Source: a virus. From it: DNA of 40,915 nucleotides. The stretch is from the IMG/VR virus record IMGVR_UViG_3300031963_008639, positions 1 through 40,915 of that record; one strand, given 5' to 3'. Shown here piece after piece: positions 12,177-38,336 of this stretch; position 1 is the first letter of the stretch; every line of letters begins with the position of its first letter. The notes beneath the pieces were generated by a model. That model worked only from the letters and a program-made list of their open reading frames with translations. It made no database searches and was not told the origin of the DNA. The translations under genes and the position numbers were made by a program.

Positions 12177-12214
12177 TATTTATATATAATACCATAAAAA
12201 AAGAGACCTGTAAA
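12177..12214 (-). promoter_or_regulatory. Promoter embedded in the psbA terminator, plus a perfect late box
   Basis: Minus strand TTTACA (12209-12214) lies in the terminator loop and 3' stem. A 17-base spacer made of the stem arm and T-tract leads to TATTAT (12186-12191). A perfect T4 late box TATAAATA follows at 12177-12184. It would drive the nuclease-membrane peptide-methyltransferase operon. Confidence 0.65.
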
Positions 12215-12223
12215 GGTCTCTTT
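12196..12223 (-). terminator. psbA terminator
   Basis: Stem AAAGAGACCT/AGGTCTCTTT (10 bp) with a 4-base loop, then a T-run on the minus strand, 25 bases after the psbA stop. Its loop and 3' arm double as a -35 box. Confidence 0.9.
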
Positions 12224-12248
12224 CAATCTTATTCAGTTTTTATGAAAC

Positions 12249-13328
12249 TCAACCGATTGCAGGTGCGGTCAGAGCAACAGGAGTTGCTTCGGCAGCTGCC
12301 AGGTCCAAAGGAAAATTATGTGCATTTCTTTCGTGCATTACCTCGAGCCCGAGTCCAGCACGGTTAAGAACATCAGCCCAAGTATTAATCACTTTGCCTT
12401 GAGAATCAACAATAGATTGGTTGAAATTAAAACCGTTGAGGTTAAATGCCATCGTGGAAACACCAAGAGCAGTGAACCAGATGCCTACAACGGGCCAGCT
12501 AGCGAGGAAGAAGTGCAGCGAACGTGAGTTATTAAAGGAAGCGTATTGGAAAATAAGGCGTCCGAAATAACCGTGAGCAGCAACGATGTTATAAGTCTCT
12601 TCTTCTTGACCGAACTTGTAACCATAGTTCTGTGACTCATTCTCGGTGGTTTCACGAACCAGCGAGGAAGTAACCAGAGAACCGTGCATAGCACTGAACA
12701 GAGAACCACCGAACACACCAGCAACTCCAAGCATATGGAAGGGGTGCATCAGGATGTTGTGCTCTGCCTGGAACACAAGCATGTAGTTGAAGGTGCCGCT
12801 GATACCCAGAGGCATCGCATCAGAGAAAGAACCTTGACCAAAAGGATAGACCAGGAACACTGCAGAAGCAGCAGCAACAGGTGCGCTGTAGGCAACACAA
12901 ATCCAAGGACGCATACCAAGACGGTAGGAGAGTTCCCATTCACGACCCATATAAGCATAGATGCCGATGAGGAAGTGGAAGACTACCAGTTGGAAAGGTC
13001 CACCGTTGTAAAGCCACTCATCTAGGGAAGCAGCTTCCCAGATGGGGTAAAAGTGCAGTCCAATAGCATTGGACGAAGGAATCACAGCACCAGAGATGAT
13101 GTTGTTTCCGTACATGAGTGAACCAGAAACGGGTTCACGGATTCCATCAATGTCCACAGGAGGAGCACCGATGAAGGCGATGATGAAACAAGTCGTAGCA
13201 GCAAGCAGGCAAGGAATCATCAGAACTCCAAACCAACCGACATAAAGACGATTATCGGTTGATGTAACCCAGTTGCAGAATTGTTCCCAAGTATTCGATT
13301 GTTGTTGACGTGAAATTGTAGCAGTCAT
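12249..13328 (-). CDS. psbA: Photosystem II reaction-centre protein D1
   Basis: Complete, uninterrupted 359-residue D1, the fast-turning-over PSII core subunit. The key residues are at their standard numbers: Tyr161 (YZ), Asp170, His190, His198 (P680), His215 and His272 (non-haem iron), Ser264 (QB), and His332, Glu333, His337, Asp342 and Ala344 of the Mn cluster and processing site. Residue 130 is Glu, the form found in high-light cyanobacterial D1. A C-terminal extension follows Ala344, as expected of precursor D1. No intron is present. It has its own strong promoter, a ~160-base structured leader and a terminator. The phage copy should sustain PSII repair during infection. Confidence 0.98.
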
Positions 13329-13376
13329 TTTTTAGCAAGTAGTAAGACCATCAGGGAAATGGTGGAGATACTATGC

Positions 13377-13481
13377 TCCCAGCACCCTTAGCTGGGATAT
13401 GAGAGACGTAATTTATACACCCATAGGTCTCGGTTAACGGGTGTTTAACAATGTTACGGAATGTTTAGGTTTCGTAACATT
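13377..13481 (-). promoter_or_regulatory. Structured 5' leader of psbA
   Basis: Three inverted repeats lie between promoter and ATG: AATGTTACG/CGTAACATT (13450-13458 with 13473-13481, 9 bp), ACACCC/GGGTGT (13417-13422 with 13439-13444) and TCCCAGC/GCTGGGA (13377-13383 with 13391-13397). None is followed by a T-run, so they look like RNA stability or translation-control elements and not terminators. Confidence 0.5.
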
Positions 13482-13489
13482 TGTTTACC

Positions 13490-13523
13490 TATTTATCATA
13501 CTACGGTCTGCTTCTGGTGTCAA
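13490..13523 (-). promoter_or_regulatory. psbA promoter: strong sigma70-type fused to a late-type box
   Basis: Minus strand TTGACA (13518-13523, perfect), 17 bases, TATGAT (13495-13500), running into GATAAATA (13490-13497). The predicted start site leaves a leader of ~160 bases. The -35 lies within 20 bases of the end of the upstream adhesin gene. Confidence 0.8.
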
Positions 13524-13537
13524 GGGGTTAGTCCAAA

Positions 13538-15346
13538 TCAATATCCGTAAGTCCCTTTATGAGTATTCCAATTTGATGTAATATCAGACGCTGACAATAC
13601 AGAACTCCAAATTTGTACTTGAGATATTGTTCCAGTAAAGTTATTTTGATTTGCATCACCAATTCTCAAAATAGATGATGCGGTTAATGAAGAAGTGTTT
13701 GTTCCTGTAGTAGAATCTTCTAAAGAACTATTAATATAAAGTTTTATGTTTCCTGTGCTTTTTTGCCTTGTTGCTGTAATATAAAACCAACTTCCAGTAT
13801 TACATAAAGTCGTTGATCTTATAGTAGTGTCTGGACTACCTATTCCAAAAAGAACTTTTCCACCACCAACAGACAAACCAAAATCAGTTGTACTCCCACC
13901 AACTTCAGCATCAACTAAAGCACCAGCACCCCACCATTGATTGTTTGGATCTCCACCTGACCAAGTAGTTTTAAACCAACAAGCAATAGTAAAGTCATCA
14001 GCAATTGGTCTGGTCATAGTAGCACGATCATCGCTACCATCAAATGAAAAAGACTTTGGTGCAGTGTTATTAAATGTTGGACCATTGAGTAAAGTAGCAT
14101 TATAAGTAGTTGGATTTCCTGCTACATCAAACCAAGTTGTTCCAGATCCACTGTAAGAACTAGAATTTGTTGCATCAAGTAATGTAACTAAATTTGTAGA
14201 AATAAATGTTGAATATGTGATAGTTGAATTGAGTGCATTATTACCTCTGTTACCAGCATTATATGATGCAGTACTTGATATACCTATAGTTACATTAGAA
14301 TTTGATGGACTTGGAGTAATTACTAATGTATATTGGGATGTGCTTATACCAGTGAAAGTTCCTTTTATCCCGTTTGTAACAGTAATATCTGAAGAGGTAA
14401 AATCAGCAACATTTTGACTAAATGTAAAAGTTGTAGTAAAAGCAATACCACTATGACCAGATGGAGATAACGTAAGAACAGAATCTGTAGGAGTTATTGG
14501 ACCAGTCCAAGAGGAATAATTGGTGCTTATTTCGGCATCAGAGAGTGCTCTATCATACATTCTTATACCTTTCACATATGCATTCACTGGCCAAGTAAAT
14601 GAAGCATTTGAAGGATCAAAAACCATCAAACGCATTGGTGCAGTATTACTATGAAATGCTTTTCCCGAAGCACTTGTAAAAACTAAAGAACCATCAATAT
14701 ACATTTTTGCAACACTACCATCATAGGTAAAACCATATTGATGATAAGAATTAAGATAGTTTGATGGAGTTGGTAATGTATAAGCATCTGTTGATTCTGA
14801 AAAATTACCTCCACCCTGAGTTCCTAAAACAAGTGTAACAACTCCACTACTTTCTTTAAATCCAAAACTACAACTTTGGTTATTTGGTGAAGTTTTACTC
14901 GTTAAAAATGCTATTTGACCTGTTCTCCAAGCATTCATTTTTACATAACATTCAAATGTCTTAGCACTTGTTCCTTCTGGAATCCACGCAGCATCATTTA
15001 TAAAGACATAATCATTTGTCCCATCAAATAAAAATTCTTTATTTGGATCAGAAAACGTTGGACTATTAACTAGTGTAAAATCACGATCATTAACTGTAGT
15101 ATCAAACCATGTTGTACCACTTCCAGAATATGAACTAGAATTTCTAGCATCTAATTCAAATAGTAGACCACTTGATGTTGGATTTGCAACTCCTGCAGAT
15201 TGTAAAAAGTTTGCTAATCCAATAGGACCGCTAGATGGGGCATTTCCTCTACCATAATATTCATTTAATCCAATAGGAGTAGATCCACCATACTCCAATT
15301 GAAGATTCATTAAACTAATTGAATTTGGAGAAATTGGTAATGTCAT
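13538..15346 (-). CDS. Fibre/adhesin with two LamG-like lectin domains and an Ig-like domain
   Basis: 602 residues. After a phage-type N-terminus (SPNSISLMNLQLEYGG) come two concanavalin-like/LamG modules (~60-280 and ~390-602). Each opens with a near-identical phrase (SSSYSGSGTTWFD), then the FDGTND or FDGSDD strand typical of the fold. Between them lies a bacterial Ig-like module (~285-385: TLSPSGHSG, FTFSQNVADFTSSDITVTNG). LamG folds usually bind carbohydrate, so this is probably a receptor-binding virion protein. The repeated module suggests an internal duplication. It follows the collagen-like fibre gene by 4 bases and must share its transcript. Binding specificity cannot be read from sequence. 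Confidence 0.82.
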   Translation of the reverse strand: MTLPISPNSISLMNLQLEYGGSTPIGLNEYYGRGNAPSSGPIGLANFLQSAGVANPTSSGLLFELDARNSSSYSGSGTTWFDTTVNDRDFTLVNSPTFSDPNKEFLFDGTNDYVFINDAAWIPEGTSAKTFECYVKMNAWRTGQIAFLTSKTSPNNQSCSFGFKESSGVVTLVLGTQGGGNFSESTDAYTLPTPSNYLNSYHQYGFTYDGSVAKMYIDGSLVFTSASGKAFHSNTAPMRLMVFDPSNASFTWPVNAYVKGIRMYDRALSDAEISTNYSSWTGPITPTDSVLTLSPSGHSGIAFTTTFTFSQNVADFTSSDITVTNGIKGTFTGISTSQYTLVITPSPSNSNVTIGISSTASYNAGNRGNNALNSTITYSTFISTNLVTLLDATNSSSYSGSGTTWFDVAGNPTTYNATLLNGPTFNNTAPKSFSFDGSDDRATMTRPIADDFTIACWFKTTWSGGDPNNQWWGAGALVDAEVGGSTTDFGLSVGGGKVLFGIGSPDTTIRSTTLCNTGSWFYITATRQKSTGNIKLYINSSLEDSTTGTNTSSLTASSILRIGDANQNNFTGTISQVQIWSSVLSASDITSNWNTHKGTYGY

Positions 15347-15350
15347 TAAT

Positions 15351-18300
15351 TCAAACCACCTTTTTCTTTAATTCATCAATTTGTTTTTGCTGTTCTTTAA
15401 TTGCTTCAATTAAAAGTGCTACTATGTTTCCATATGATACTGTTTTAATTCCATCTTCACTTTGCCCAACAACTTCTGGCAACACTTGTTCTATTTCTTG
15501 AGCAATTACACCAGCATGTCTCTTTTCCTTATCCGCTAAATCTTTTCTTACAAATGTTACTCCTCTAATTTTATTTAATTTTTCTATTGCGTTTTCAATA
15601 ACTTCAATATCATCTTTAATTGAAACATCAGAATAAGCAATTACATTTCCTGTAGCAGTTAAATCACCCGTACTAGCATTAAATGTAAATGCTGTTGCTG
15701 TTGTCCTTACACTTGCGGTTTGATTAGATCCTGCTGCAGCAACAAACACAGGATAAAAAGTAGTATTATCAGTAGTATTTGTTGCGTTAATTGTAGTAGA
15801 TGGTCCTGTTGAACCTTGGATTCCCTGTGTTCCTGTCGTACCCTGAGTTCCAGTAATCCCCTGAATACCTTGAGATCCTGTAGTTCCCTGAGCACCGGTA
15901 GTTCCTTGTGTTCCTGTCGTACCCTGAGTTCCAGTAATCCCCTGAATACCTTGAGTACCAGTAGTTCCTTGAGCACCGGTAGTTCCTTGTGTTCCTGTCG
16001 TACCCTGAGTTCCTGTGGCTCCTTGAGCACCAGTTATACCTTGAATACCTTGAGTACCAGTAGTTCCTTGAGCACCAGTTATACCTTGAATACCTTGAGT
16101 ACCAGTAGTTCCTTGAGTACCAGTGGTCCCTTGTATACCTTGAGTACCAGTAGTTCCTTGTGCTCCTGTTGTACCTTGAGTTCCAGTGGTCCCTTGTATA
16201 CCTTGAGTTCCAGTGGTCCCTTGTATACCTTGAGTACCAGTAGTTCCTTGCGATCCTACAGTTCCCTGAGCCCCTGTTGTACCTTGAGTACCAGTAGTTC
16301 CTTGAGCCCCTGTTGTACCTTGAATACCTTGAGTACCAGTAGTTCCTTGTGCTCCTGTTGTACCTTGAGTTCCAGTGGTCCCTTGTATACCTTGAGTACC
16401 AGTAGTTCCTTGCGATCCTACAGTTCCCTGAGCCCCTGTTGTACCTTGAGTACCAGTAGTTCCTTGAGCCCCTGTTGTACCTTGAGTACCAGTAGTTCCC
16501 TGAACACCCAATATACCTTGAATTCCCTGAATTCCAGCAGCGTAAGGAGCAGTCCAAGAAACACCAGTACCAATAGAAACAAGAATGCTACCAGCAACTC
16601 CAACAGTGTTATTAATATCCTTAATACTTGAATCTAGTTCAAGAACACCTGCGATAGTTGCGATGCCAGAAACATTAATACCTTGACTCAGATTAATTTG
16701 AGTTCCCTGAAGGTTTGATATTGTCAGTAAATTTTGACCTGGATTATAAAGTAAAGCAGTATCAATATAAAGAGAAGTATAACCAATTCCAGATTCAAAT
16801 GGAATGTAATAAACATTGTCATCACTAGCTTGTGGTAAAATATTAATGTATTCTGCGTTTGTTGAACTAGAAGAATTACCACTAAAAGATGTTGCGGTTA
16901 TAATTCCAGAAGCATTAATATTCCTAACAAATGCTAAATCATTTTGAGTAAATTGAACATTACCAGATGCCAATCTGGTTCCTACTGGAAACTGAGTTGA
17001 TCCAATACCAACACCATAATTAAACAACCAAGCATCAGTACCTAAACCTCCCCAAGTACCTTGCTTAACCCACATAATCTGCTTGTAGGTATCGGGAAGT
17101 GTATTAATACCTACAGCATTTAATGCTACTAAAGGGTTACCTTCTGTTGAAGCAATAGCGATACCACCATGATTCGCACTACTATCACTAGGTAGTGTAG
17201 TTGTACTAAATCCAAGAACAATATCTCTATCTTCTACTCTAAGTTCTGTAGCATTGATATAAACAGAAGTACCACCAATTGTTATATTATTTTGAACGTT
17301 TAAATCATAAACACTTAATTGAGTTCCATCAAAGGTAAAATTACTTGATCCAGTTGGTTCATTACTACCATTTTTGTAAACAACTTCATAAGATAATCCT
17401 GCTACTGGACCAGAAACACCTTGAGTGCCTTGAATTCCTTGAGTACCTTGAATTCCTTGAGTTCCTTGAGTTCCCTGAAGACCTTGTGTTCCTTGAGTTC
17501 CTTGAGTTCCCTGAAGACCTTGTGTTCCTTGTGTTCCTTGTAGTCCCTGAAGACCTTGAGTTCCTTGAGTTCCTTGAGTTCCCTGAAGACCTTGTGTTCC
17601 TTGTAGTCCCTGAAGACCTTGAGTTCCTTGAGTTCCTTGAGTTCCCTGAAGACCTTGTGTTCCTTGAGCACCAGTTATACCTTGAATACCTTGAGTACCA
17701 GTAGTTCCTTGAGCACCAGTTATACCTTGAATACCTTGAGTACCAGTAGTTCCTTGTGCTCCTGTTGTACCTTGAGTACCTTGAAGACCCTGTAAACCTT
17801 GAGTTCCTTGAGTACCTTGAGTACCTTGAAGACCCTGTAAACCTTGAAGTCCTTGAGTACCTTGAAGACCCTGTAAACCTTGAAGTCCTTGAGTACCTTG
17901 AAGACCCTGTAAACCTTGAGTTCCTTGAGTACCTTGAAGACCCTGTAAACCTTGAGTTCCTTGAGTTCCTTGAGTACCTTGTGTTCCTTGAACACCTTGA
18001 CTACCAGTAGTACCTTGTATACCTGTAACACCTTGAGAACCCGTAGTTCCTTGTGTACCAGCACCTGTAGCACCTTGAACACCTGTAGTTCCTTGAGTTC
18101 CAGTTGCTCCTTGTATACCAACAATCCCTTGTATTCCAATAGTTCCTTGTGTACCTTGAGCACCTGTAGCTCCAATAGGAGATCCATTAACATGGAAAGC
18201 AGTAGCACTAATAATGCCACTACTCCCATTAATTGTAACTCCAGTACCAACAATAATACGATTACTATTTCCATCTAAAGTAATAGAGGAAGATCCAATA

Positions 18301-19157
18301 GTAACAATACCAGTTACTCTAACATCACCTTCAACATATAACTTATATCCATCTTTAGCAGTTGTACCAATACCAACATTTTTAATGGTATTAATTCCAA
18401 CAGAGTCTACTGACCAAGTACCAGCAGATCCAACAACTCCACCTGATACCGTTTCAAATATGAACTTACCTACAGAATGATCGTACTTAAGAAATTTGCC
18501 GTCATATACAGAAGCATTCGTAGCAATACCAACAATATCGTCAAGATACTTTAACTGAGTTTCTCCGCCGCCGCCAAGTGTAGATAGTTGCTGCTGAATA
18601 CGATTAATGAATAAAGTGTAATGTTTATTCAAATCTTCAACACTCACAAGTGGTGTTAAAGGATCACTATTTTTTGTTTCGGGTGGTTCGTTTAAAAGAC
18701 CTTCTTGTATCTGATCATAGATTTTTAGAACCTTTGAAATCTTGTCTTTAATTTCTGGTAAATTTAGTAACGTAGATTCAGAAATTTCTTGGAAGACCTG
18801 ATCTCGTACTTCAATTAGTTCTTTATTACTTTGAGAAATATAACTCTCAACATTGTTTAAAGACTTGTGATATTGCTCTTCATCTTCTTCTAACTCTTCA
18901 ATTTTAACATCAGAGTCAGCAGCAAAAGATTTTCTCCAATGATATAAATTCTCTTCTTCTACTTGAACATCTACTTCTACTTCATCATATATTTTTGGTA
19001 ACTTTTCTACAACAGATTCCTTAACAACAAAAACTTCAGAGTCACTTTCACCTTCAAGGACTCCTGTGTTTTTAAGTTCTTCATCAAGTTCCTTTATCTT
19101 GTTATCTAAATCTTTTGAGGGTTTAGAATACTTGATAGTTTTCTTAAAAATTCCCAT
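15351..19157 (-). CDS. Collagen-like tail fibre with C-terminal S74 self-cleaving chaperone domain
   Basis: 1268 residues. The order is: acidic, coiled-coil-like N-terminus (1-205); beta repeats; collagen-like block 1 of G-x-Q triplets (~327-582); a beta module (~585-870) shared with the giant left-edge fibre; collagen-like block 2 (~873-1118); and an intramolecular chaperone (~1176-1268). The chaperone has the Ser-Lys dyad spacing of peptidase S74 (SDVSIK, Ser1176 and Lys1181) and HAGVIAQEIEQVLPE, so trimerisation followed by release of the last ~93 residues is expected. The final helix is a coiled coil. Glutamine fills nearly every third triplet position, unlike animal collagen. Role: long trimeric virion fibre, by family knowledge. 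Confidence 0.9.
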   Translation of the reverse strand: MGIFKKTIKYSKPSKDLDNKIKELDEELKNTGVLEGESDSEVFVVKESVVEKLPKIYDEVEVDVQVEEENLYHWRKSFAADSDVKIEELEEDEEQYHKSLNNVESYISQSNKELIEVRDQVFQEISESTLLNLPEIKDKISKVLKIYDQIQEGLLNEPPETKNSDPLTPLVSVEDLNKHYTLFINRIQQQLSTLGGGGETQLKYLDDIVGIATNASVYDGKFLKYDHSVGKFIFETVSGGVVGSAGTWSVDSVGINTIKNVGIGTTAKDGYKLYVEGDVRVTGIVTIGSSSITLDGNSNRIIVGTGVTINGSSGIISATAFHVNGSPIGATGAQGTQGTIGIQGIVGIQGATGTQGTTGVQGATGAGTQGTTGSQGVTGIQGTTGSQGVQGTQGTQGTQGTQGLQGLQGTQGTQGLQGLQGTQGLQGLQGLQGTQGLQGLQGLQGTQGTQGTQGLQGLQGTQGTTGAQGTTGTQGIQGITGAQGTTGTQGIQGITGAQGTQGLQGTQGTQGTQGLQGLQGTQGLQGTQGTQGTQGLQGLQGTQGTQGLQGTQGTQGTQGLQGTQGTQGIQGTQGIQGTQGVSGPVAGLSYEVVYKNGSNEPTGSSNFTFDGTQLSVYDLNVQNNITIGGTSVYINATELRVEDRDIVLGFSTTTLPSDSSANHGGIAIASTEGNPLVALNAVGINTLPDTYKQIMWVKQGTWGGLGTDAWLFNYGVGIGSTQFPVGTRLASGNVQFTQNDLAFVRNINASGIITATSFSGNSSSSTNAEYINILPQASDDNVYYIPFESGIGYTSLYIDTALLYNPGQNLLTISNLQGTQINLSQGINVSGIATIAGVLELDSSIKDINNTVGVAGSILVSIGTGVSWTAPYAAGIQGIQGILGVQGTTGTQGTTGAQGTTGTQGTTGAQGTVGSQGTTGTQGIQGTTGTQGTTGAQGTTGTQGIQGTTGAQGTTGTQGTTGAQGTVGSQGTTGTQGIQGTTGTQGIQGTTGTQGTTGAQGTTGTQGIQGTTGTQGTTGTQGIQGITGAQGTTGTQGIQGITGAQGATGTQGTTGTQGTTGAQGTTGTQGIQGITGTQGTTGTQGTTGAQGTTGSQGIQGITGTQGTTGTQGIQGSTGPSTTINATNTTDNTTFYPVFVAAAGSNQTASVRTTATAFTFNASTGDLTATGNVIAYSDVSIKDDIEVIENAIEKLNKIRGVTFVRKDLADKEKRHAGVIAQEIEQVLPEVVGQSEDGIKTVSYGNIVALLIEAIKEQQKQIDELKKKVV
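15803..16537 (-). repeat. Collagen-like coding repeat, block 2
   Basis: About 245 codons of Gly-(Thr/Ile/Ala/Ser)-(Gln/Gly) triplets, mainly GTQGTTG, GTQGIQG and GAQGTTG. Longer units recur with very similar DNA, so unequal recombination or slippage could change its length. Confidence 0.9.
17411..18178 (-). repeat. Collagen-like coding repeat, block 1
   Basis: About 256 codons of triplets dominated by GTQ and GLQ (GTQGLQGLQG units), with nearly identical 18-45 base DNA repeats inside. It differs from block 2 in being rich in Leu at the second triplet position. Confidence 0.9.
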
Positions 19158-19187
19158 TAATTATGAATAGTTTTTTTCCTTATCAAG

Positions 19188-19222
19188 TATTTATTATACC
19201 CTATATTCTTCTATTTTATCAA
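19188..19222 (-). promoter_or_regulatory. Promoter of the collagen-like fibre: sigma70-type fused to a late-type box
   Basis: Minus strand TTGATA (19217-19222), 18 bases, TATAAT (19193-19198) running into AATAAATA (19188-19195), 31 bases before the ATG. The overlap register equals that at psbA and psbD. It sits inside the 3' end of the preceding small gene. Confidence 0.6.
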
Positions 19223-19358
19223 GCACCTTGTTCAGGTATTGATGTGCTAACCACTTTGGATCATGTCCAGATTTATCCATCCACTCCTTATCCAAGTCTG
19301 CCTTTAATTTAATAACCTCACACTTTATAATATCCTTAGTCAGTTGTCCTCTGGGCAT
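19194..19358 (-). CDS. Small unknown protein, 54 aa
   Basis: A 54-codon frame starting MPRGQLTKDIIKCEVIK and ending LNKVLDKIEEYRV. It is charged and predicted mostly helical, with no membrane segment. The phrase MPRGQLT looks familiar from other cyanophage genomes, which I take as mild support. It lies just after the peroxiredoxin terminator, and its stop overlaps the fibre promoter. Function unknown. Confidence 0.6.
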   Translation of the reverse strand: MPRGQLTKDIIKCEVIKLKADLDKEWMDKSGHDPKWLAHQYLNKVLDKIEEYRV

Positions 19359-19362
19359 ATAC

Positions 19363-19396: not shown

Positions 19397-19416
19397 GGGT
19401 ATTATTACTTATTCTA

Positions 19417-19944: not shown

Positions 19945-19955
19945 TTTAACCTCCA

Positions 19956-20620: not shown

Positions 20621-20649
20621 ATTATATAGCAAAAATAAAGAGGGGTCAA
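20621..20649 (-). promoter_or_regulatory. Promoter embedded in a terminator, driving the hli-ferredoxin operon
   Basis: Minus strand TTGACC (20644-20649) lies in the hairpin loop and stem base. The 17-base spacer is the 3' arm and T-rich tail, then a perfect TATAAT (20621-20626). Confidence 0.75.
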
Positions 20650-20658
20650 GCCCCTCTT
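20631..20658 (-). terminator. Terminator of the 17-gene sugar operon
   Basis: Stem AAGAGGGG/CCCCTCTT (20638-20645 with 20651-20658), loop of 5, followed on the minus strand by TATTTTT. It lies 34 bases after the GT25 stop. Confidence 0.88.
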
Positions 20659-31051: not shown

Positions 31052-31052
31052 G

Positions 31053-32880: not shown

Positions 32881-32916
32881 ATACTGACTCATAAAATCAT
32901 AAACTCTATAGTATGT

Positions 32917-32945
32917 ATTATACAAAAAAAGAGGGGTCTTGTAAA
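32917..32945 (-). promoter_or_regulatory. Promoter embedded in a terminator, driving the 17-gene sugar operon
   Basis: Minus strand TTTACA (32940-32945) overlaps the hairpin loop and 3' stem. The 17-base spacer is the stem arm and T-tract, then a perfect TATAAT (32917-32922). The GME ATG follows about 37 bases later. Confidence 0.75.
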
Positions 32946-32952
32946 CCCCTCT
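32924..32952 (-). terminator. Terminator upstream of the sugar operon
   Basis: Stem AGAGGGGT/ACCCCTCT (32930-32937 with 32945-32952), loop CTTGTAA, then seven T on the minus strand. It ends transcripts coming from the 33078-33819 genes. Confidence 0.88.
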
Positions 32953-33077
32953 CGTTAAGCTCAGGCTCGCCACCAATTCTTTGACTGGAAATTGGAAACC
33001 AGGCGGGAGAGAGTCCCATCCGCACCAGGGTTGTTAGCGTGTCTCCATCACGGGCATAAGGGGATTGACTCCACCAC

Positions 33078-33311
33078 CTAGTTTGCCTTAACTAGGAAAA
33101 GTTGAACTAGTTTTGGTATCTCAATAGCGGCATAAAAACCACATAAGAAAAGAATGTCCCAAAACTTATATTTGATGGCAAAGGGAACGACAAAGACATT
33201 CCCAATACACTTCACAAATAAACCGATTTTCATATCTCCCCATAACAGGAAAAAGTAACCTGATAGGAGGAGGATATTACCAATGTATCGGAATACATTA
33301 GACTTTGACAT
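33078..33311 (-). CDS. Small polytopic membrane protein, 77 aa
   Basis: Two to three hydrophobic segments (IGNILLLSGYFFLLWGD, GLFVKCIGNVFVVPFAI, WDILFLCGFYAAIE) in 77 residues and a short charged tail. The spacing loosely recalls a SWEET/MtN3 half-unit but no motif confirms it. It is followed by ~125 bases without a convincing gene and then a terminator. Function unknown. Confidence 0.65.
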   Translation of the reverse strand: MSKSNVFRYIGNILLLSGYFFLLWGDMKIGLFVKCIGNVFVVPFAIKYKFWDILFLCGFYAAIEIPKLVQLFLVKAN

Positions 33312-33337
33312 AAGGGGTTTGCTCCCGACCAGTACTT

Positions 33338-33604
33338 TTAAAGACTCTCCGTGTCTTCTTCATCGTCCTTCACATAAGCAGGCACCATATCGGGGTCTAA
33401 CCAGCAGGTATAGTCGTGGTCTTCCATAGCAGTAATGAGTTGCATCTCATTATCGCAAAGGTACATATCACGATAACGCCCAGTATATGCGTCTACTTTT
33501 TGAATACGGCAATCAGGTTTGCCGTTGATTTCAAGAGTGCCGACTTGAACATACCGATAAGGAAAACGCTCAAGCAGAACAGTAGGTTTCCTAACGACTT
33601 TCAT
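33338..33604 (-). CDS. Unknown protein, 88 aa
   Basis: It starts MKVVRKPTVLLERFPYRYV and ends in an acidic stretch (VKDDEEDTESL). No motif is recognised. The ATG at 33604 overlaps the upstream stop by one base, with GAGG seven bases before it, so this start is preferred over a TTG one codon earlier. Coupled to the 71-aa gene. Confidence 0.6.
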   Translation of the reverse strand: MKVVRKPTVLLERFPYRYVQVGTLEINGKPDCRIQKVDAYTGRYRDMYLCDNEMQLITAMEDHDYTCWLDPDMVPAYVKDDEEDTESL

Positions 33605-33819
33605 CAACCAACCTCAACAGACTGAAGATCTTGGTCAATATACTCCATAAGCATTTCGTAGTCGTCAAGGGGGTCACCAGAAAATACGACGCCCTCATTT
33701 TCGTAGAAGCGACGGACCTTTTTATAAAGTTTCGGATTCTTTACATCAAGGTAGATTTCCCCGTTAGCAGCAAGTTGAAGAGTGCTAACATCCTTTTTGA
33801 ACTTTTGAATCAGAGACAT
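33604..33819 (-). CDS. Unknown protein, 71 aa
   Basis: Charged, probably alpha/beta protein (LQLAANGEIYLDVKNPKLYK, then acidic DDYEMLMEYIDQDL). No family recognised. It is the first gene after a very good promoter and is coupled to the 88-aa gene. Confidence 0.6.
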   Translation of the reverse strand: MSLIQKFKKDVSTLQLAANGEIYLDVKNPKLYKKVRRFYENEGVVFSGDPLDDYEMLMEYIDQDLQSVEVG

Positions 33820-33841
33820 TGTTGTGTTTGAATACCTGAAT

Positions 33842-33870
33842 ATTATAAGTGTTTGACTTTATGTAGTCAA
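33842..33870 (-). promoter_or_regulatory. Promoter of the 33604-33819 operon
   Basis: Minus strand TTGACT (33865-33870), 17 bases, perfect TATAAT (33842-33847), ~20 bases before the ATG and 26 bases after the tRNA-Pro. Confidence 0.75.
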
Positions 33871-33895
33871 GTGTGCCAGTCAGGAAACTGGCGAG

Positions 33896-33971
33896 TCCGG
33901 ATATTCAGATTTGAACTGAAATTATTCCTGCTCCCAAAGCAGGTGCCATGACCAAGTTAGGCGATATCCGG
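33896..33971 (-). tRNA. tRNA-Pro (anticodon UGG)
   Basis: A full cloverleaf: acceptor CCGGATA/TATCCGG, D stem GCC/GGC, anticodon stem CCTGC/GCAGG with loop TTTGGGA, T arm TTCAG-TTCAAAT-CTGAA, discriminator A. CCA is not encoded. It lies between the tiny-gene operon and the 33842 promoter. Confidence 0.93.
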
Positions 33972-34011
33972 TTGCGTTGAGTGGTTTTGCCTCCCAACAG
34001 AACTAATTATA

Positions 34012-34164
34012 CTACTTCTTGTGCCCCTTGTCAAATGGAGCCCAGTGCTGCCAGTTGTATTTGTGGACTGCCCACATACCCATAATGGGCACAACAATCA
34101 AGGCATAACACATAATGCCTAATACTACTTGATTGTTAAGTGCTGCTGCTGCGAAGTGTCCCAT
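34012..34164 (-). CDS. Tiny membrane protein, 50 aa
   Basis: MGHFAAAALNNQVVLGIMCY, then one hydrophobic helix (~13-33) and a His/Trp/Lys-rich tail (WAVHKYNWQHWAP). The ATG shares a base with the stop of the 24-aa gene (TAATG). Last gene of the tiny-gene operon. Function unknown. Confidence 0.6.
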   Translation of the reverse strand: MGHFAAAALNNQVVLGIMCYALIVVPIMGMWAVHKYNWQHWAPFDKGHKK

Positions 34165-34238
34165 TAGATTATAGACATAAAGAACAAGAAAAACCCAAAT
34201 GCTATAAAGAACCCAAGAATTAAGAATTGTGATCCCAT
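34164..34238 (-). CDS. 24-aa transmembrane peptide
   Basis: The peptide is MGSQFLILGFFIAFG followed by FFLFFMSII: a single helix with no charged residue. It is supported as a gene mainly by its position: it starts 1 base after the stop of one gene and its stop overlaps the next ATG. It could instead be a coupling leader for the 50-aa gene. Confidence 0.5.
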   Translation of the reverse strand: MGSQFLILGFFIAFGFFLFFMSII

Positions 34239-34239
34239 A

Positions 34240-34446
34240 TCAATTCCATTCCTCATAGTATCTTCTAAAATATGAATCAACCTTTTTTAGGTCATCCAAA
34301 TGAATATCACAGGTGTAATTATTATCATCACACCATTGTAGTGCCATCCAATGAAAATTTTCTTCTCTCATCACTCTCTCAATGCCATAACTTCTGGCAA
34401 AGGAAGACATAACAAAATTCCAACACTGACTAGTGTGCTGTTCCAT
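34240..34446 (-). CDS. Small soluble protein, 68 aa
   Basis: From Met at 34446, which has AAGGGA just before it. The sequence MEQHTSQCWNFVMSSFARSY continues to a charged tail (LKKVDSYFRRYYEEWN). Helical, Trp/Cys-containing, no membrane segment, the only clearly soluble member of this run besides the first gene. The frame opens earlier (34509) but that part overlaps the preceding gene. Function unknown. Confidence 0.55.
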   Translation of the reverse strand: MEQHTSQCWNFVMSSFARSYGIERVMREENFHWMALQWCDDNNYTCDIHLDDLKKVDSYFRRYYEEWN

Positions 34447-34561
34447 TTCCCTTATAGTCGTCACTATCGTAATAACTTCCTTTCTTTGACCCAACATAAA
34501 GAGTAGCAACCACGAATGGAATTGCTAATACAATCAAAAATCTACCAAGCAAATGTGCCAT
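34430..34561 (-). CDS. Tiny membrane protein, 43 aa
   Basis: MAHLLGRFLIVLAIPFVVA gives an N-terminal helix, then a polar tail SKKGSYYDSDDYKGNG. The ATG shares a base with the upstream stop (TAATG). Function unknown. Confidence 0.55.
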   Translation of the reverse strand: MAHLLGRFLIVLAIPFVVATLYVGSKKGSYYDSDDYKGNGTAH

Positions 34562-34686
34562 TACATTCCTCCTCCGTTTTTAAATCCAATTAAGTAACCA
34601 ATAATAAGTCCACACATAAATGCCACAAACATATAGAGCATATGTGAAAAGAAGTCAATAAAGATAAACCATTCTTCAGTCGTCAT
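34561..34686 (-). CDS. Tiny membrane protein, 41 aa
   Basis: It starts MTTEEWFIFIDFFSHMLYMF, with one hydrophobic helix to residue ~34 and the tail FKNGGGM. Upstream GGAGGA coding for the Gly run doubles as a Shine-Dalgarno for the next gene. It overlaps the preceding gene by 11 bases. Function unknown. Confidence 0.55.
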   Translation of the reverse strand: MTTEEWFIFIDFFSHMLYMFVAFMCGLIIGYLIGFKNGGGM

Positions 34687-34861
34687 TTTCTTTCATTAAC
34701 TCCTCTATACGCCTTCTCATATCAGTCATTTTTTTATTCTCACGCTCACAATGGCGATAACCACGCTGCCCCCTGAATATCATTGTGCCTTGATAAAACA
34801 TTGTGGCAGCAAAAACCAATAGTAGGACTATGCCTATTATTTCAGGGTAATGTTGAGCCAT
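34676..34861 (-). CDS. Small membrane protein with charged helical tail, 61 aa
   Basis: N-terminal transmembrane helix (IIGIVLLLVFAATMFYQGTM, residues ~8-27), then a strongly charged coiled-coil-like tail (ERENKKMTDMRRRIEELMKE). This anchor-plus-coil design resembles inner-membrane scaffolds or spanin-like proteins, without further proof. It overlaps the upstream gene by 25 bases. Confidence 0.6.
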   Translation of the reverse strand: MAQHYPEIIGIVLLLVFAATMFYQGTMIFRGQRGYRHCERENKKMTDMRRRIEELMKENDD

Positions 34862-35043
34862 GGCAGTAATGGTGGAATGACGCCTATGAGTCTTAAAAGT
34901 CCTTCAGCAAATAAAGCAAGAACCACCCAACCGACGCACATACTAATGATACTAGCATTACGGTTGTGTCGTCGTATTGCTGCATCTATCATCTCCTTTA
35001 CTTCACTGCGAGTTACATAATCGTCATCAAAGGGTTCCATCAT
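34837..35043 (-). CDS. Small membrane protein, 68 aa
   Basis: An acidic/basic amphipathic N-terminus (FDDDYVTRSEVKEMIDAAIR) then one or two hydrophobic segments (SIISMCVGWVVLALFAEGLL, RLIGVIPPLLPWL). Start fixed by an ATGA overlap with the upstream stop. Function unknown. Confidence 0.62.
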   Translation of the reverse strand: MMEPFDDDYVTRSEVKEMIDAAIRRHNRNASIISMCVGWVVLALFAEGLLRLIGVIPPLLPWLNITLK

Positions 35044-35189
35044 TTCTCGTCTCCAAGAAACTTTGCCAGAGGGTCTCTTCTGGTCTTTACGATTTCAACT
35101 GCTCTCTTATAGAACATATTATCCATGTTCCCAGAGGCTTCAAAAGTCTCCTTGATCTTCACCCAGTTCTCGTAGGTGTGCTGATCCAT
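35040..35189 (-). CDS. Small soluble protein, 49 aa, first gene of the tiny-gene operon
   Basis: It starts MDQHTYENWVKIKETFEASG and ends RRDPLAKFLGDEK; charged and helical, no membrane segment. Its stop and the next ATG overlap as ATGA. It follows a plausible promoter by ~27 bases. Confidence 0.58.
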   Translation of the reverse strand: MDQHTYENWVKIKETFEASGNMDNMFYKRAVEIVKTRRDPLAKFLGDEK

Positions 35190-35215
35190 AGGGTTACGGT
35201 TGAATACTACTAGTT

Positions 35216-35243
35216 ATGCTAGTCGGTAGTTTCAACTTGTCAA
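35216..35243 (-). promoter_or_regulatory. Probable promoter of the tiny-gene operon
   Basis: Minus strand TTGACA (35238-35243, perfect), 16 bases, TAGCAT (35216-35221, 4 of 6). It lies between the tRNA-Ser and the 49-aa gene. Confidence 0.5.
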
Positions 35244-35296
35244 GTTTGTTAGGGTTTGATGATAGTGTTTAAGGAAATGTTAAATCTTAAATAAAA

Positions 35297-35381
35297 CGGA
35301 GAGAGTAGGATTCGAACCAACGGAAGCTTTCACTTCGGCAGTTTTCAAGACTGCTGCCTTAAACCACTCGGCCATCTCTCC
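35297..35381 (-). tRNA. tRNA-Ser (anticodon UGA)
   Basis: Class II tRNA of 85 bases: acceptor GGAGAGA/TCTCTCC, anticodon stem GCAGT/ACTGC with loop CTTGAAA, a long variable arm (AAGTGAAAGCTTC region) and T arm with GGTTCGAATCC. No encoded CCA. Confidence 0.95.
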
Positions 35382-35408
35382 AATAAGAACATTATAATAC
35401 AAAATGAA

Positions 35409-35891
35409 TCAAATGTCAACTACACAATCTTTTTTTACATCTATAAAAAGAAACTTCATCGGAGCATCAGAAAGATTTGCCCCTTCGTGTATATAGTCCA
35501 TCACTTCATAGACCTTTGGAACTCCTTCTTCCCAAAAGACCTTTTCACCCTGCCAAATCATATAACACTTTTCTCTATCAGGTATCTCCAAAGGAATCTG
35601 AATTCTCTTATAAGGTTCCCGATAAATGTTTGGGTCTCTATGAGGTTTTAAAATTGTTCCCGAATCAAAAGAAGAATATCCCGAATAAAGAATATCAGTA
35701 TTTTGATGAACCTTTACAACTTCATCCGTCATCAATTTTTTTCTAATCGTTACTGCCTTACCAACACCCTTCAACCAATAGTGGTGAATATCAGTATTAC
35801 AGTATCCTTCTGTCGTTGGTGCTTTTTTAGTTGGAAATTCAGTTTGTTTTGCCCATTCATAAAGAGATTGTAACTCAACTTTAGTGATCAT
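35409..35891 (-). CDS. 2OG-Fe(II) oxygenase, aspartyl/asparaginyl beta-hydroxylase-like
   Basis: 160 residues. Iron ligands of the double-stranded beta-helix are visible as His84-x-Asp86 (LKPHRDPNIY) and His135 (DYIHEGANLSDAP). KRIQIPLEI and WQGEKVFWEEG before it match the Asp/Asn hydroxylase pattern. Such enzymes hydroxylate protein side chains or small molecules using 2-oxoglutarate, which accumulates in cyanobacteria under nitrogen limitation. It is transcribed divergently from the plus-strand cassette with a 59-base gap. Substrate unknown; the virion fibre is one speculative option. Confidence 0.82.
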   Translation of the reverse strand: MITKVELQSLYEWAKQTEFPTKKAPTTEGYCNTDIHHYWLKGVGKAVTIRKKLMTDEVVKVHQNTDILYSGYSSFDSGTILKPHRDPNIYREPYKRIQIPLEIPDREKCYMIWQGEKVFWEEGVPKVYEVMDYIHEGANLSDAPMKFLFIDVKKDCVVDI

Positions 35892-35919
35892 TTACTTAAC
35901 AATAATAGTGAGTTATAAT
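35891..35919 (+). promoter_or_regulatory. Plus-strand promoter of the paralogue cassette
   Basis: TTTACT (35891-35896), 17 bases, perfect TATAAT (35914-35919), then AAAT, one base short of the fused late box seen elsewhere. The GTG start follows 31 bases later, with AGGA about 8 bases before it. Confidence 0.7.
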
Positions 35920-35950
35920 AAATCATAATATAGAATAAAAGGAAAGTCAA

Positions 35951-36565
35951 GTGATTCTTCTGCCTCCAAAGAAAAGAACAGAATTTGAAAGACTTCTAAA
36001 AGAACTTGGATATAAAGATAGATCTCCAGTTCTACCAAAAGAAAAAAAGATAATGAAGCAAATCAATTATATGTGTAATGATGGTGCGATGGCAATCTAT
36101 CTTTTCTTCATTCCGTATTATACCAAAAAAAGTTATCTTTGGTTAGAATATTTAGATTACCATAATTCACCAGACATAAAAGAAAGAATTGAATCTCTTG
36201 CCCAAAGAATTCATTATGATGAAAAAACAAAACTTGCGGAAATTGGTTGGGAAGCAAAGTACACAAAACAACCTTATGACTTTTCTCTGGAAGATAGAAA
36301 GAAAGTATTTTTTAGTTTTCTTAAAGAAGCACAATACTCATTACACAATGGATTTGATTCACTGAATATTAAACCAAATCCAGGAGACATACTTGTAGGT
36401 AAACCACAAGGAGTCAAGATCAATCAAGGTTTTACAGATTCATCAATTGAACTTGGCACAAGGCAAAGAGCACTTGTCGGAAAACGATTCGGTCTTGGAA
36501 ATGTTTATGAAGATGGATTTCAATATGGTAAATATGATGAGAACCTGAACATCATACCAATATGA
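35951..36565 (+). CDS. Unknown protein of the plus-strand cassette, 204 aa (paralogue A)
   Basis: Starts with GTG after AGGAAAG. Lys-rich and soluble (LLKELGYKDRSPVLPKEKK), with aromatic-rich central strands. The C-terminal third, GDILVGKPQG, then RQRALVGKRFGLGNVYEDG and YGKYDENLNIIPI, matches the second gene of the pair, so they are diverged tandem paralogues. I know no family for this module. It overlaps gene B as ATGA, so the two are co-translated. These are the only complete plus-strand genes in the window, which suggests a separately acquired cassette. Confidence 0.8.
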   Translation: MILLPPKKRTEFERLLKELGYKDRSPVLPKEKKIMKQINYMCNDGAMAIYLFFIPYYTKKSYLWLEYLDYHNSPDIKERIESLAQRIHYDEKTKLAEIGWEAKYTKQPYDFSLEDRKKVFFSFLKEAQYSLHNGFDSLNIKPNPGDILVGKPQGVKINQGFTDSSIELGTRQRALVGKRFGLGNVYEDGFQYGKYDENLNIIPI

Positions 36566-37125
36566 AAAAAGAATTTAAATCTATAATAACAGAACTGGGT
36601 ATTGAATCATCTCAAAGAATATATGAATCACCAGACAAAATAACTGTTCGGATTCCAACAGATTATGATCACATCCTATTCTTGGGAGTTGTCTGTGTCA
36701 TATACAAAAATAAGATGAGTTTTTTGTACAAAGACTTTGAGACTCATAGTGATTCAGAAAGAGTTTTAAACATCGCAAACAAACTTAACTTAAATACTTC
36801 TGGAAGAGCAATACGACCTGATTGGCAGATTCAACATTCAACAGACCCAAGATTCTTTACGACAGAAGACAATAAAAAAGTTTTGTCTTACTTCATAAAT
36901 GGTATTAATAATGTTATTAGAAATGGTGATGGAATAATTACACCAAAACCAAATGATATTTTGATTGGTCTTCCTTGGGATGGATCTTTATTTACTAACA
37001 TTCACCATCCAAATAATGCCAGAAAAAGATCTGCCCTAAACAAAAAGTTAGGATTTGGTGAAGTTGATCAATATAACTATCAATATGCAGTCTATGATAA
37101 GGACCTTAACCTAAACCCTATCTAA
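36562..37125 (+). CDS. Unknown protein of the plus-strand cassette, 187 aa (paralogue B)
   Basis: The N-terminal half differs from paralogue A (IITELGIESSQRIYESPDK, FLGVVCVIYKNKMSFLY), but both share a layout of short helix, beta strands, a helix with N(A)(A/N)xL and the C-terminal module: PKPNDILIGLPWDG, then RKRSALNKKLGFGEVD and YAVYDKDLNLNPI. The stop overlaps the convergent zinc-ribbon gene by 8 bases. No enzyme motif or membrane segment is visible. Confidence 0.8.
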   Translation: MKKEFKSIITELGIESSQRIYESPDKITVRIPTDYDHILFLGVVCVIYKNKMSFLYKDFETHSDSERVLNIANKLNLNTSGRAIRPDWQIQHSTDPRFFTTEDNKKVLSYFINGINNVIRNGDGIITPKPNDILIGLPWDGSLFTNIHHPNNARKRSALNKKLGFGEVDQYNYQYAVYDKDLNLNPI

Positions 37126-37375
37126 TTTCAAAATCAAGTCTTCTAACTTTTCTTTGGCGTCTTTCTTCCTGCCACATAATATCTTCTTGTGATAGGATAT
37201 TCTTTTTATTTTTAGACTGATAAGAATTCAACATAACGACCTGTGATAAGTCAACTGCCGAAACCTTATCACCACGAATTGTTGCCATGTTGGGACAACC
37301 ACATGTCACCGTTTTATTCTGATGCCCTTCTAACTCCTTACCACAGGAGCGGCATCTTATTTTAATGTTTTCCAT
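37118..37375 (-). CDS. Zinc-ribbon protein, 85 aa
   Basis: N-terminal CRSCGKELEGHQNKTVTCGC gives four cysteines spaced as a zinc ribbon (CxxC...CxC). The rest is polar with a basic, Arg-rich tail (ERRQRKVRRL). Probably binds nucleic acid or another protein. It lies 13 bases downstream of the dps gene and converges on the plus-strand cassette. Confidence 0.7.
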   Translation of the reverse strand: MENIKIRCRSCGKELEGHQNKTVTCGCPNMATIRGDKVSAVDLSQVVMLNSYQSKNKKNILSQEDIMWQEERRQRKVRRLDFEIR

Positions 37376-37388
37376 TTTCTATTAATAA

Positions 37389-37823
37389 TTATTCAGTAAA
37401 TGATCTCAACATCCAAACAAACTTTCCATGTGCTTCGTTTAAATCATCAAGTAGATTAACAGTTCCTCTTGACTTTTGATTATCTGCTTCTACTGCAGCA
37501 GCATCAAGCATACTAATAATCTTCTTATGATCCTCAAGGAGATCACGAATCATTTCCATTTCGGAAAGATTGGATTTTGCTTCGGAGACACCAGAAACTT
37601 CTAGAACTCTTGACAATGAACTAATGGGTTTAATTGACAAGAATCTCATGTGCTCTGATACACGATCAACCTCTTCTTGTATTTCCTGGTATTGCTCACC
37701 AAACAAATCATGGATCTGTTTAAAATCAGGTCCAACAATGTGCCAGTGATAAACCCAAGTTTTTTGGAACAGCAAGAAAAGAGATGCTTGTGTATCAGAA
37801 AGTAGTTTATATAGAGTTTCCAT
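37389..37823 (-). CDS. Dps-like ferritin-family protein
   Basis: 144 residues from the ATG at 37823; the longer frame to 37898 would cover the tRNA-Val. Four-helix ferritin-like layout with the Dps ferroxidase pattern YHWHIVGPDFKQIH and then EEVDRVSEHMR. Aligned by eye to E. coli Dps, His51, His63, Asp78 and Glu82 correspond to His26, His38, Asp53 and Glu57; the Asp67 position is Gly42 with Glu43 beside it. Dps oxidises iron with peroxide and protects DNA. In this phage it fits with the peroxiredoxin as oxidative-stress defence. An inverted repeat precedes the ATG. Confidence 0.85.
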   Translation of the reverse strand: METLYKLLSDTQASLFLLFQKTWVYHWHIVGPDFKQIHDLFGEQYQEIQEEVDRVSEHMRFLSIKPISSLSRVLEVSGVSEAKSNLSEMEMIRDLLEDHKKIISMLDAAAVEADNQKSRGTVNLLDDLNEAHGKFVWMLRSFTE

Positions 37824-37824
37824 T

Positions 37825-37842
37825 ATACTCTTTTTTGAGTAT
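37825..37842 (-). promoter_or_regulatory. Hairpin directly upstream of the dps start
   Basis: A perfect 6-bp inverted repeat ATACTC/GAGTAT with a six-base A loop (minus strand) sits between the tRNA-Val 3' end and the ATG and includes the only GAG that could act as ribosome site. It may control translation or mark the tRNA processing boundary. Confidence 0.45.
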
Positions 37843-37848
37843 TTATAA

Positions 37849-37920
37849 TGGGCGATACTGGAATCGAACCAGTGACTTACCACTTGTAAGGAGGCCACTC
37901 TACCGCTGAGTTAATCGCCC
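37849..37920 (-). tRNA. tRNA-Val (anticodon UAC)
   Basis: Acceptor GGGCGAT/ATCGCCC, D arm ACTC/GAGT, T arm ACTGG-TTCGATT-CCAGT, anticodon loop CTTACAA. The anticodon stem (GCCTC/GTGGT) has a G-T and a T-T mismatch, so it is weaker than usual. Its first ten bases also encode the end of the upstream 58-aa gene. Confidence 0.88.
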
Positions 37921-38087
37921 TTATGTACACATTGTAGCATATACTCTACGGTTTTGGCAACATCTTCCATTGCTAACCGCAGGTCTTCTCTTTGTCCAGA
38001 TTCTTGCCTACAAACAGGGCGTCGGTCATCAACAAGAGTCCAACGCCACTGGTTCATATCAGCACAATACCAGAGATTAATTTTCAT
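37911..38087 (-). CDS. Small protein, 58 aa, ending inside the tRNA-Val gene
   Basis: It begins MKINLWYCADMNQWRWTLVD and continues with RRPVC and REDLRLAMEDVAKTVEYMLQ. I recall similar short Trp-rich proteins in other cyanophages, moderate support. The last codons (GGC GAT TAA) are the 5' acceptor of the tRNA-Val. It overlaps the upstream gene by 11 bases. Function unknown. Confidence 0.62.
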   Translation of the reverse strand: MKINLWYCADMNQWRWTLVDDRRPVCRQESGQREDLRLAMEDVAKTVEYMLQCVHKGD

Positions 38088-38280
38088 TCTTGTAATATTC
38101 CAGTTTGATCCAGTTTAAAAGAGCATAAGTTTCTGGTAGTTCTGACTTATGATCTTGGTAGTCAGTATCAGTTAACATATTCTCTTTTTCATAAAACTCA
38201 ATTTCACTAGAAAGATAATCAATATAATGATTAATAGCAGTGATCGCAAGTTGCCTATCCCGTTGCGAAATAAGAGACAT
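38077..38280 (-). CDS. Unknown helical protein, 67 aa
   Basis: Charged and helical (LAITAINHYIDYLSSEIEFY, then LLNWIKLEYYKNEN), no motif recognised. It is the first gene after a terminator with an embedded TTGACA promoter, followed by the 58-aa gene, tRNA-Val, dps and the zinc-ribbon gene, which probably share its transcript. Confidence 0.62.
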   Translation of the reverse strand: MSLISQRDRQLAITAINHYIDYLSSEIEFYEKENMLTDTDYQDHKSELPETYALLNWIKLEYYKNEN

Positions 38281-38301
38281 AAAACTCCTAACTCGTTAAT
38301 G

Positions 38302-38331
38302 ATACTACAATAAAAAAGGGGGTTTTGTCAA
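38302..38331 (-). promoter_or_regulatory. Promoter embedded in a terminator, driving the tRNA-Val/dps transcript
   Basis: Minus strand TTGACA (38326-38331, perfect) falls in the hairpin loop, an 18-base spacer is the 3' arm plus T-tract, then TAGTAT (38302-38307, 4 of 6). Confidence 0.6.
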
Positions 38332-38336
38332 CCCCC
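38312..38336 (-). terminator. Terminator of the exported barrel-like protein gene
   Basis: Stem GGGGGTT/AACCCCC (38318-38324 with 38330-38336), 5-base loop, then six T on the minus strand, 25 bases after the stop. Confidence 0.9.

Follow-up and report, generated by a model that had tools for sequence, protein, structure and literature searches.

Interlocked elements at four operon boundaries

The window analyzed here, a 40,915-base virus record from IMG/VR, resembles T4-like cyanophages such as S-SKS1. It carries psbA, a second photosystem II reaction-center gene, hli, ferredoxin, dps, a sugar operon, and seven tRNAs. The second reaction-center gene has the PHROG label D1; we read it as psbD. 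Four gene boundaries on the minus strand, S1 to S4, hold an element of the same design, called interlocked below: a GC-rich hairpin whose loop contains or adjoins a -35 hexamer, a T-tract, and a -10 hexamer separated from the -35 by 17 (once 18) bases. Direct reading, a consensus promoter scan, and a separate hairpin finder agree on all four, and the coordinates, hexamers, and spacings given for them in a first-pass annotation of this DNA are correct.

S1 (12186-12224, minus strand, as are all features of the window described below) lies between the end of psbA and the start of an endonuclease VII gene (Photo_RC and Endonuclease_7 matches). Its hairpin covers 12199-12224, and the -35 TTTACA (12214-12209) is followed after 17 nucleotides (nt) by the -10 TATTAT (12191-12186), which is preceded by TG and thus forms an extended -10. 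S2 (20621-20658) separates the end of a sugar/glycosyltransferase operon from the start of the hli-ferredoxin-redoxin operon (Glyco_transf_25, Fer2, and Redoxin matches, with hli recognized by a weak Chloroa_b-bind match); its hairpin (20638-20658) contains TTGACC (20649-20644), 17 nt before TATAAT (20626-20621). S3 (32917-32953) comes after the open reading frame (ORF) at 33078 and a wcaG RNA, and before the sugar operon, whose first gene encodes an epimerase (Epimerase match); the hairpin is at 32929-32953, and TTTACA (32945-32940) and TATAAT (32922-32917) are again 17 nt apart. At S4 (38302-38336), a phrog_417 gene ends and a unit comprising the 38077 ORF, tRNA-Val, and dps (Ferritin match) starts, with the hairpin at 38318-38336 and 18 nt between TTGACA (38331-38326) and TAGTAT (38307-38302).

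The hairpin arms differ among S1-S4. Folding energies of these hairpins range from -12.9 to -16.1 kcal/mol and are equalled in 0 to 3 of 200 shuffles. At each of the four sites, the stable GC-rich hairpin and the T-tract following it are in the direction of the upstream gene, as in intrinsic terminators, while -35 and -10 hexamers 16-18 bp apart stand upstream of a gene, beyond chance, as in sigma-70 promoters. All four lie between same-direction genes, with 10-29 nt, measured by eye, from the expected RNA start (taken as 7 nt after the -10) to the next start codon. RNA is expected to start downstream of the listed starts of the genes after S1 and S3 (12195 and 32976), which fit less well than the in-frame ATGs found by eye at 12150 and 32892.

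A fifth site, S5 (10853-10888), consists of a hairpin terminator (10869-10888) and TATAAT (10853-10858) with no -35 at the right spacing, which agrees with the earlier description of it as a site with a poor -35. It falls among the initial codons of a 237-aa ORF taken to start at TTG, and the PHROG match of this ORF begins only at residue 31. For comparison, an ordinary terminator without an embedded promoter (9039-9060) follows the second reaction-center gene (9078-10148).

Coupling of terminators and promoters exceeds chance

In the window, we required a stem of at least six pairs with at least four G-C, a T-tract with 5/8 T, and a promoter with at least 10 of 12 matches at 16-18 bp whose -35 is inside the hairpin. 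Both strands together contain 16 such terminator-like hairpins, four of them with an interlocked promoter, compared with a mean of 1.97 hairpins and no interlocked promoters in 100 local dinucleotide shuffles. The same rule yields six interlocked elements in S-SKS1, two in P-SSM2, and four in S-SSM5, and none in 20 shuffles of each. As a control for the coupling itself, shuffling is weak, because it destroys the hairpins.

The coupling was compared across terminators of 320 IMG/VR loci (4.15 Mb; psbA, hli, the 33078 ORF, and dps served as queries, with 80 loci for each), which contain 873 terminators, or 345 once near-copies are removed. Of these 345, 57 have a -35-like hexamer (5/6) in the hairpin, 123 have a -10-like hexamer beyond the stem, between +3 and +24, and 45 have both; in 41, the two are 16-18 bp apart, and the element is interlocked. 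The spacing of the coupled pairs is 16, 17, and 18 bp in 2, 35, and 4 cases, respectively, with 0 to 2 cases at every other value. Permuting the downstream sequences among the 345 terminators left 6.5 ± 2.3 coupled (maximum 17 in 5000), and the antisense strand gave 4. The layout recurs far above shuffled and permuted controls with arms that differ, as had been claimed, and does not represent a copied repeat. At the psbA loci alone, 23 terminators were coupled, compared with 6.6 ± 2.2 after swapping downstream sequences and 9.1 ± 2.6 after swapping loops. The register of the hairpin varies, and the -35 and -10 offsets shift together, keeping 17 bp, as in (-15,+8), (-14,+9), (-13,+10), (-12,+11), and (-10,+13).

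TTGACA ranked first of 180 permuted hexamers, scoring 42 against a mean of 2.4, and the next two (33 and 29) were its own shifted near-copies. Similarly, TATAAT came first of 20 permuted hexamers with 42, the next one having 17 and the mean being 8.4. Downstream of the interlocked elements (40 of 41 have a downstream ORF) we found 17 gene families, the largest with 10 and 9 members; the sample is thus not one gene repeatedly copied, though it is not fully independent. The median leader of the 41 elements is 18 nt, and their hairpins are no weaker than those of other terminators (median -11.5 vs. -10.6 kcal/mol). A -10-like hexamer soon after the T-tract, with no coupled -35, is found at 69 of the 345 terminators.

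Distribution in phages and hosts

Counts across groups were made with a strict rule and with a looser one, which lets the -35 stay clear of the loop. By the strict rule, under which the IMG/VR loci have their 41 of 345, 9 of 144 non-redundant terminators in cyanophage isolates are interlocked (S-SKS1, 5/26; P-SSM2, 2/19; S-SSM5, 2/23). There were no interlocked elements among 176 terminators of RB49, KVP40, T4, and Aeh1, among three in HTVC008M (140 of 147 kb), or among 124 non-redundant terminators of 78 cyanobacterial loci; two of the 80 loci fetched, whose record titles name Gammaproteobacteria and Euryarchaeota, were counted separately and had 0/6. A hairpin-free pattern (TTGAC, a T-tract in the spacer, TATAAT) had no matches in 11 Synechococcus/Cyanobium genomes, a set to which WH7803, WH8102, and Prochlorococcus do not belong, and none in RB49, KVP40, T4, Aeh1, or HTVC008M. 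The same pattern had 21 matches in 14 of 27 phage records, 14 of the 27 having been picked from loci already analyzed. The cyanobacterial count and the hairpin-free scan rule out a design of the hosts; a general T4-like design is ruled out by the count in RB49, KVP40, T4, and Aeh1 together with 0/71 in five of seven further loci.

Composites of another kind, in which the hairpin and the promoter are arranged serially, were found by the strict rule nine times in RB49, twice in Aeh1, and once each in S-PM2, P-SSM2, and S-SSM5. The looser rule yields 12 interlocked and 3 serial composites in eight cyanophage isolates, and 0 interlocked and 26 serial in RB49 (13, among 40 terminators), Aeh1 (11, among 68), KVP40 (1), and T4 (1). 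Since random places satisfy the serial rule at a rate of 2.1% in RB49 and 1.2% in Aeh1, about one serial composite by chance is expected in each. At positions 115005, 117381, 121708, and 134521 of RB49 (NC_005066, minus strand), there are TTGAC..TATAAT promoters whose 17-base spacer seems, by eye, to hold an inverted repeat.

Conservation at orthologous places

The S2 element is interlocked in 57 of 80 regions upstream of hli, with any hairpin in 61; the S4 element is interlocked in 50 of 70 orthologous regions, and the S3 element, by the standard rule, in 28 of 80, with a hairpin in 65. These regional counts, and the one given for S1 below, take in near-identical contigs. In S-SKS1, the stretch at 33244-33272 (minus strand) is an exact counterpart of S2 from the -35 to the -10, and the looser rule finds five more elements in this phage. 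Among the S3 orthologs, 24 distinct hairpins lack the standard promoter, and in 19 of them the loop GCATA puts, as judged by eye, TTGCAT at the -35 place. In S3 orthologs such as L312:5274-5322, L325:6650-6698, and S-SKS1 at 48573 (minus strand), the loop TTGCATAA replaces TTGACA; the listed S3-type copies have TTGCAT 16-17 bases before the -10 and covarying arms, with TTGTAT instead in L550. We considered TTGCATAA as a possible general activator box: its hairpin versions are alike and S3-like, but hairpin-less matches, for example in L017 and L023, also precede a -10.

Promoters sought without a hairpin filter were present in 70 of 80 regions for S2, 52 of 80 for S3, and 48 of 70 for S4, comprising 47, 33, and 24 distinct sequences, respectively; the S3 pattern admits TTGCA and omits some -10 variants present among S3 orthologs. 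A terminator hairpin by the standard rule lies over the -35 in 37 of the 47, 32 of the 33, and 20 of the 24 distinct promoters. When the 25 bases before the -35 were shuffled, the means were 1.7, 1.2, and 1.5, and the maxima in 200 runs were 7, 5, and 6. A more lenient hairpin test (6/7 pairs, best of 26 registers) lets through 3.5 to 6.7 sequences of each shuffled set.

Across orthologs, substitutions in one arm are compensated in the other, and the promoter and its spacing are kept. This was counted at S2 and S3; at S4, compensatory change was seen by eye only. In 34 S3 sequences, 98.0% of the cells are paired, both sides have changed in five of nine pairs (41 cells), and the covariation score is 0.458, compared with at most 0.188 in slid alignments. 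In 30 S2 sequences of one register, 94.3% are paired, three of seven pairs have changed on both sides (26 cells), and the score is 0.373, compared with at most 0.246. At both sites, the number of both-side cells, the percentage paired, and the score are above all 500 shuffles. The percentage paired leans upward, because rows were admitted by a loose pairing filter: the S2 alignment was picked with it, and omits other registers and L260, and the S3 row L382 came through the same filter. Covarying arms among orthologs and differing arms within the window rule out a copied repeat.

Three hli regions (L248, L296, and L299) have an ordinary-loop hairpin upstream of the promoter, L248 and L296 keeping the promoter without pairing. 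This arrangement is a natural serial version of the hli boundary, and the interlocked and serial layouts may therefore replace one another.

The wcaG RNA next to S3

The wcaG RNA (RF01761) at 32959-33059 (72.2 bits, with a cut-off of 42) ends 5 nt before the S3 hairpin. In 17 of 27 records, we found 18 wcaG matches, 15 of them with a hairpin 3-11 nt downstream. Twelve of the 18, in a set that includes the window, L545, and L549-L561, have a hairpin with an embedded promoter 7-11 nt on; 11 of these promoters have TTGCAT, which the hexamer search was set to accept, and one has TTGACA. As the embedded promoter stands downstream of wcaG, sugar-operon transcripts started there would lack this RNA.

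Other features

The sequence just downstream of the S1 -10 (12177-12184) is TATAAATA, a match to the T4 late promoter, for which the consulted part of PMC3037559 gives TATAAAT. In 15 of the 345 terminators, the T-tract runs into an exact TATAAATA at +5 to +8; the background is 9.1e-5 per position and strand. It is fused to the T-tract, or lies just after it, at L013, L071, L074, L231, L242, L247, and other loci. Such fusions are not special to cyanophages, since T4 has two and KVP40 one.

After psbA in several phages, the promoter precedes the hairpin: TTGACA or TTGATA overlaps the psbA stop codon and is followed by a TATAAT-like hexamer (L004:2469, L049:2130, L050:4084, and others), often with TTTTTTTATG next. 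The next mRNA would then begin with the hairpin. Upstream of psbA in the window is a PhotoRC-II RNA (RF01717; 13363-13456). A 1268-aa ORF (15351-19157) with long short-period repeats, perhaps collagen-like as judged by eye, adjoins a 602-aa ORF and lies between psbA and the redoxin gene.

Proposed function and alternative explanations

The anatomy of the sites, their statistical excess, compensatory conservation at two loci, and the lack of such elements in those hosts and non-cyanobacterial T4-like phages that were sampled argue that each site is very likely a single bifunctional element, an intrinsic terminator and a sigma-70-type promoter for host-type RNA polymerase. The end of one transcript and the beginning of the next are probably both specified by the same 45 or so bases. 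In the cell, we infer, both termination and initiation would be carried out by the host RNA polymerase with its primary sigma factor, early in infection. The transcript of the upstream unit would fold the hairpin and come off at the U-tract. As double-stranded DNA, this stretch, with the -35 in the former loop, would be bound by the sigma-70-type holoenzyme, and RNA would start about 7 bases after the -10. The -35 would be formed by the loop and neighboring stem bases, the 17-bp spacer by the 3' arm and the T-tract, with the -10 directly after it. Thus, one operon would end and the next start within about 45 bp, with a leader of about 10-30 nt. The two functions should not conflict, save for a passing polymerase briefly covering the promoter, as the promoter reading of the DNA needs no hairpin. 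A plausible benefit is a compact, indivisible operon boundary, whose two functions recombination could not part.

Several observations weigh against this interpretation. The loci were fetched with window proteins, several of them share a contig, and the set includes near-copies of the window; the promoter consensus is that of E. coli. Sixteen of the 57 hairpins with a -35-like hexamer have no coupled -10. The strict rule finds no interlocked elements among the terminators of S-PM2 (15), Syn9 (14), S-CRM01 (21), S-RIM8 (15), and P-HM2 (11), so that five of eight isolates are without the layout, or four of eight by the looser rule, under which S-RIM8 gains one. Cyanophages hold serial composites too (18 of the 345 terminators, strict rule). 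The layout is present at many orthologous places of S2, S3, and S4, and is poorly conserved at the psbA site, S1, with 2 of 78 psbA-downstream regions. The number of pairs with both-side change is matched by 29 of 500 shuffles at S3 and 306 of 500 at S2, and the number of further pair types by 173 and 89 of 500, respectively. Finally, TTGCAT, present in 19 of 34 distinct S3 orthologs, matches the -35 consensus at only three of six positions.

A tentative alternative is that the sites are ordinary promoter-early stem-loops (PeSLs), composite cassettes known in T4-like phages and chiefly important for recombination between cassettes. The phages belong to the same supergroup, both functions are present at the same kind of inter-operon place, and the cyanophage contigs have serial composites, including the separate ordinary-loop hairpins of L248, L296, and L299 at the hli locus. 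On the other hand, the composites of RB49 and Aeh1 are all serial, far more frequent than at random places; no arm sequence is common to the four sites; and, in the consulted part of PMC4503421, PeSL-mediated acquisition is judged unlikely for one region of S-PM2.

It is unlikely, though consistent with the -10 adjoining the T-tract, the expected place of RNA 3' ends, that the two functions are coupled by restart. A polymerase that has just terminated in the T-tract would then remain on the DNA and reinitiate from the promoter beneath it. In single-molecule experiments, bacterial RNA polymerase usually remains bound to DNA once intrinsic termination has occurred and is able to start again close by (PMC6978322, PMC6978380, as far as consulted), but these restarts are usually in the reverse direction (PMC6978322), and sigma would have to be retained or rebound. 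A broader version, which we likewise consider improbable, makes interlocking a mechanism that hands polymerase from operon to operon by restart without leaving the DNA and uses several promoter types (with either a sigma-70 -35 or a TTGCAT box in the loop, or with a late TATAAATA fused to the T-tract); wcaG would then be a 3'-end RNA before such an element and not a sugar-operon leader.

We have little confidence that wcaG is a riboswitch with the S3 hairpin as its expression platform, wcaG controlling read-through into the sugar operon and the embedded promoter being secondary. The closeness of wcaG to hairpins favors this, as do L561, which has wcaG, a terminator, and a gene with no embedded promoter, and the treatment of wcaG as a riboswitch candidate in the consulted part of PMC2864571. 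However, when the 5' arm of the hairpin was paired with the 130 bases upstream of it, it did no better than arms swapped in from elsewhere (longest pairing 7.82 vs. 7.72), so that a wcaG-controlled attenuator with a specific alternative pairing was rejected, other mechanisms being possible; RNAs from the embedded promoter would have no wcaG; and only one site of four would be accounted for. Finally, it is extremely improbable that only the terminators function and the loop and -10 matches reflect base composition, AT-rich after the T-tract, plus chance: -10-like hexamers are indeed common after T-tracts, but the spacing peak at exactly 17, the decoy hexamers, the permutation, the antisense control, the shuffles, and the ortholog comparisons rule out a chance origin.

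If the bifunctional interpretation holds, these are natural sequences in which a terminator and a promoter share bases, kept by compensatory evolution across many cyanophage contigs. They would make the recycling of RNA polymerase at operon borders directly testable, provide a compact two-function part for cyanobacterial genetics, and allow operon borders to be annotated by a simple rule in the genomes of some cyanophages. The role of wcaG RNA as a sugar-operon leader is also put in question.

Comparison with known systems

Like intrinsic (Rho-independent) terminators, the element has a GC-rich hairpin followed by a T-tract, with a strength like that of other cyanophage terminators; unlike them, it holds a promoter in the loop, arm, and T-tract. 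With sigma-70-type phage early promoters it shares TTGACA/TTTACA, 17 bp, and TATAAT, but its spacer must also encode a hairpin arm and a T-tract. T4 early promoters have GTTTAC at the -35 (PMC1524935, in the part consulted). The wcaG RNA adjoins S3 and similar elements in relatives, yet it is a separate RNA motif, and the embedded promoter starts downstream of it.

The closest counterparts are PeSLs. Arbiol in 2010 and Comeau in 2014 reportedly described them in RB49, phi1, PST, and nt-1 as units in which a strong sigma-70-like promoter is joined to an effective stem-loop terminator. The sites of the window are alike in that, at the sequence level, a single short intergenic unit combines a stem-loop terminator with an early promoter of the sigma-70-like kind. 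The composites of RB49 and Aeh1, however, have a different hairpin loop (often TTCG or GAAA) and carry the entire promoter after the hairpin, the -35 starting 7-34 nt past the stem, whereas the cyanophage element has the -35 in the hairpin and a -10 starting 8-14 nt after the stem. According to the consulted part of PMC4503421, PeSLs mediate gene shuffling in T4-like phages, and S-PM2, with a host-like promoter and stem-loops, is a case set apart, since PeSLs are much denser elsewhere. A search of the literature outside the PeSL papers brought up no description that we recognized of a -35 inside a terminator loop in cyanophages, a result that does not establish absence from print. The serial layout, measured in RB49 and Aeh1 and taken as defining by us, is not that of the cyanophage elements; for this reason, we do not file the element as a PeSL, although it would work like one. 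The first-pass annotation knew of no described class of this kind. That has to be narrowed, as PeSLs are published composite promoter-terminator motifs: combined terminator-promoter units are already known in T4-like phages, and what appears from these sequences to be new is the interlocked geometry.

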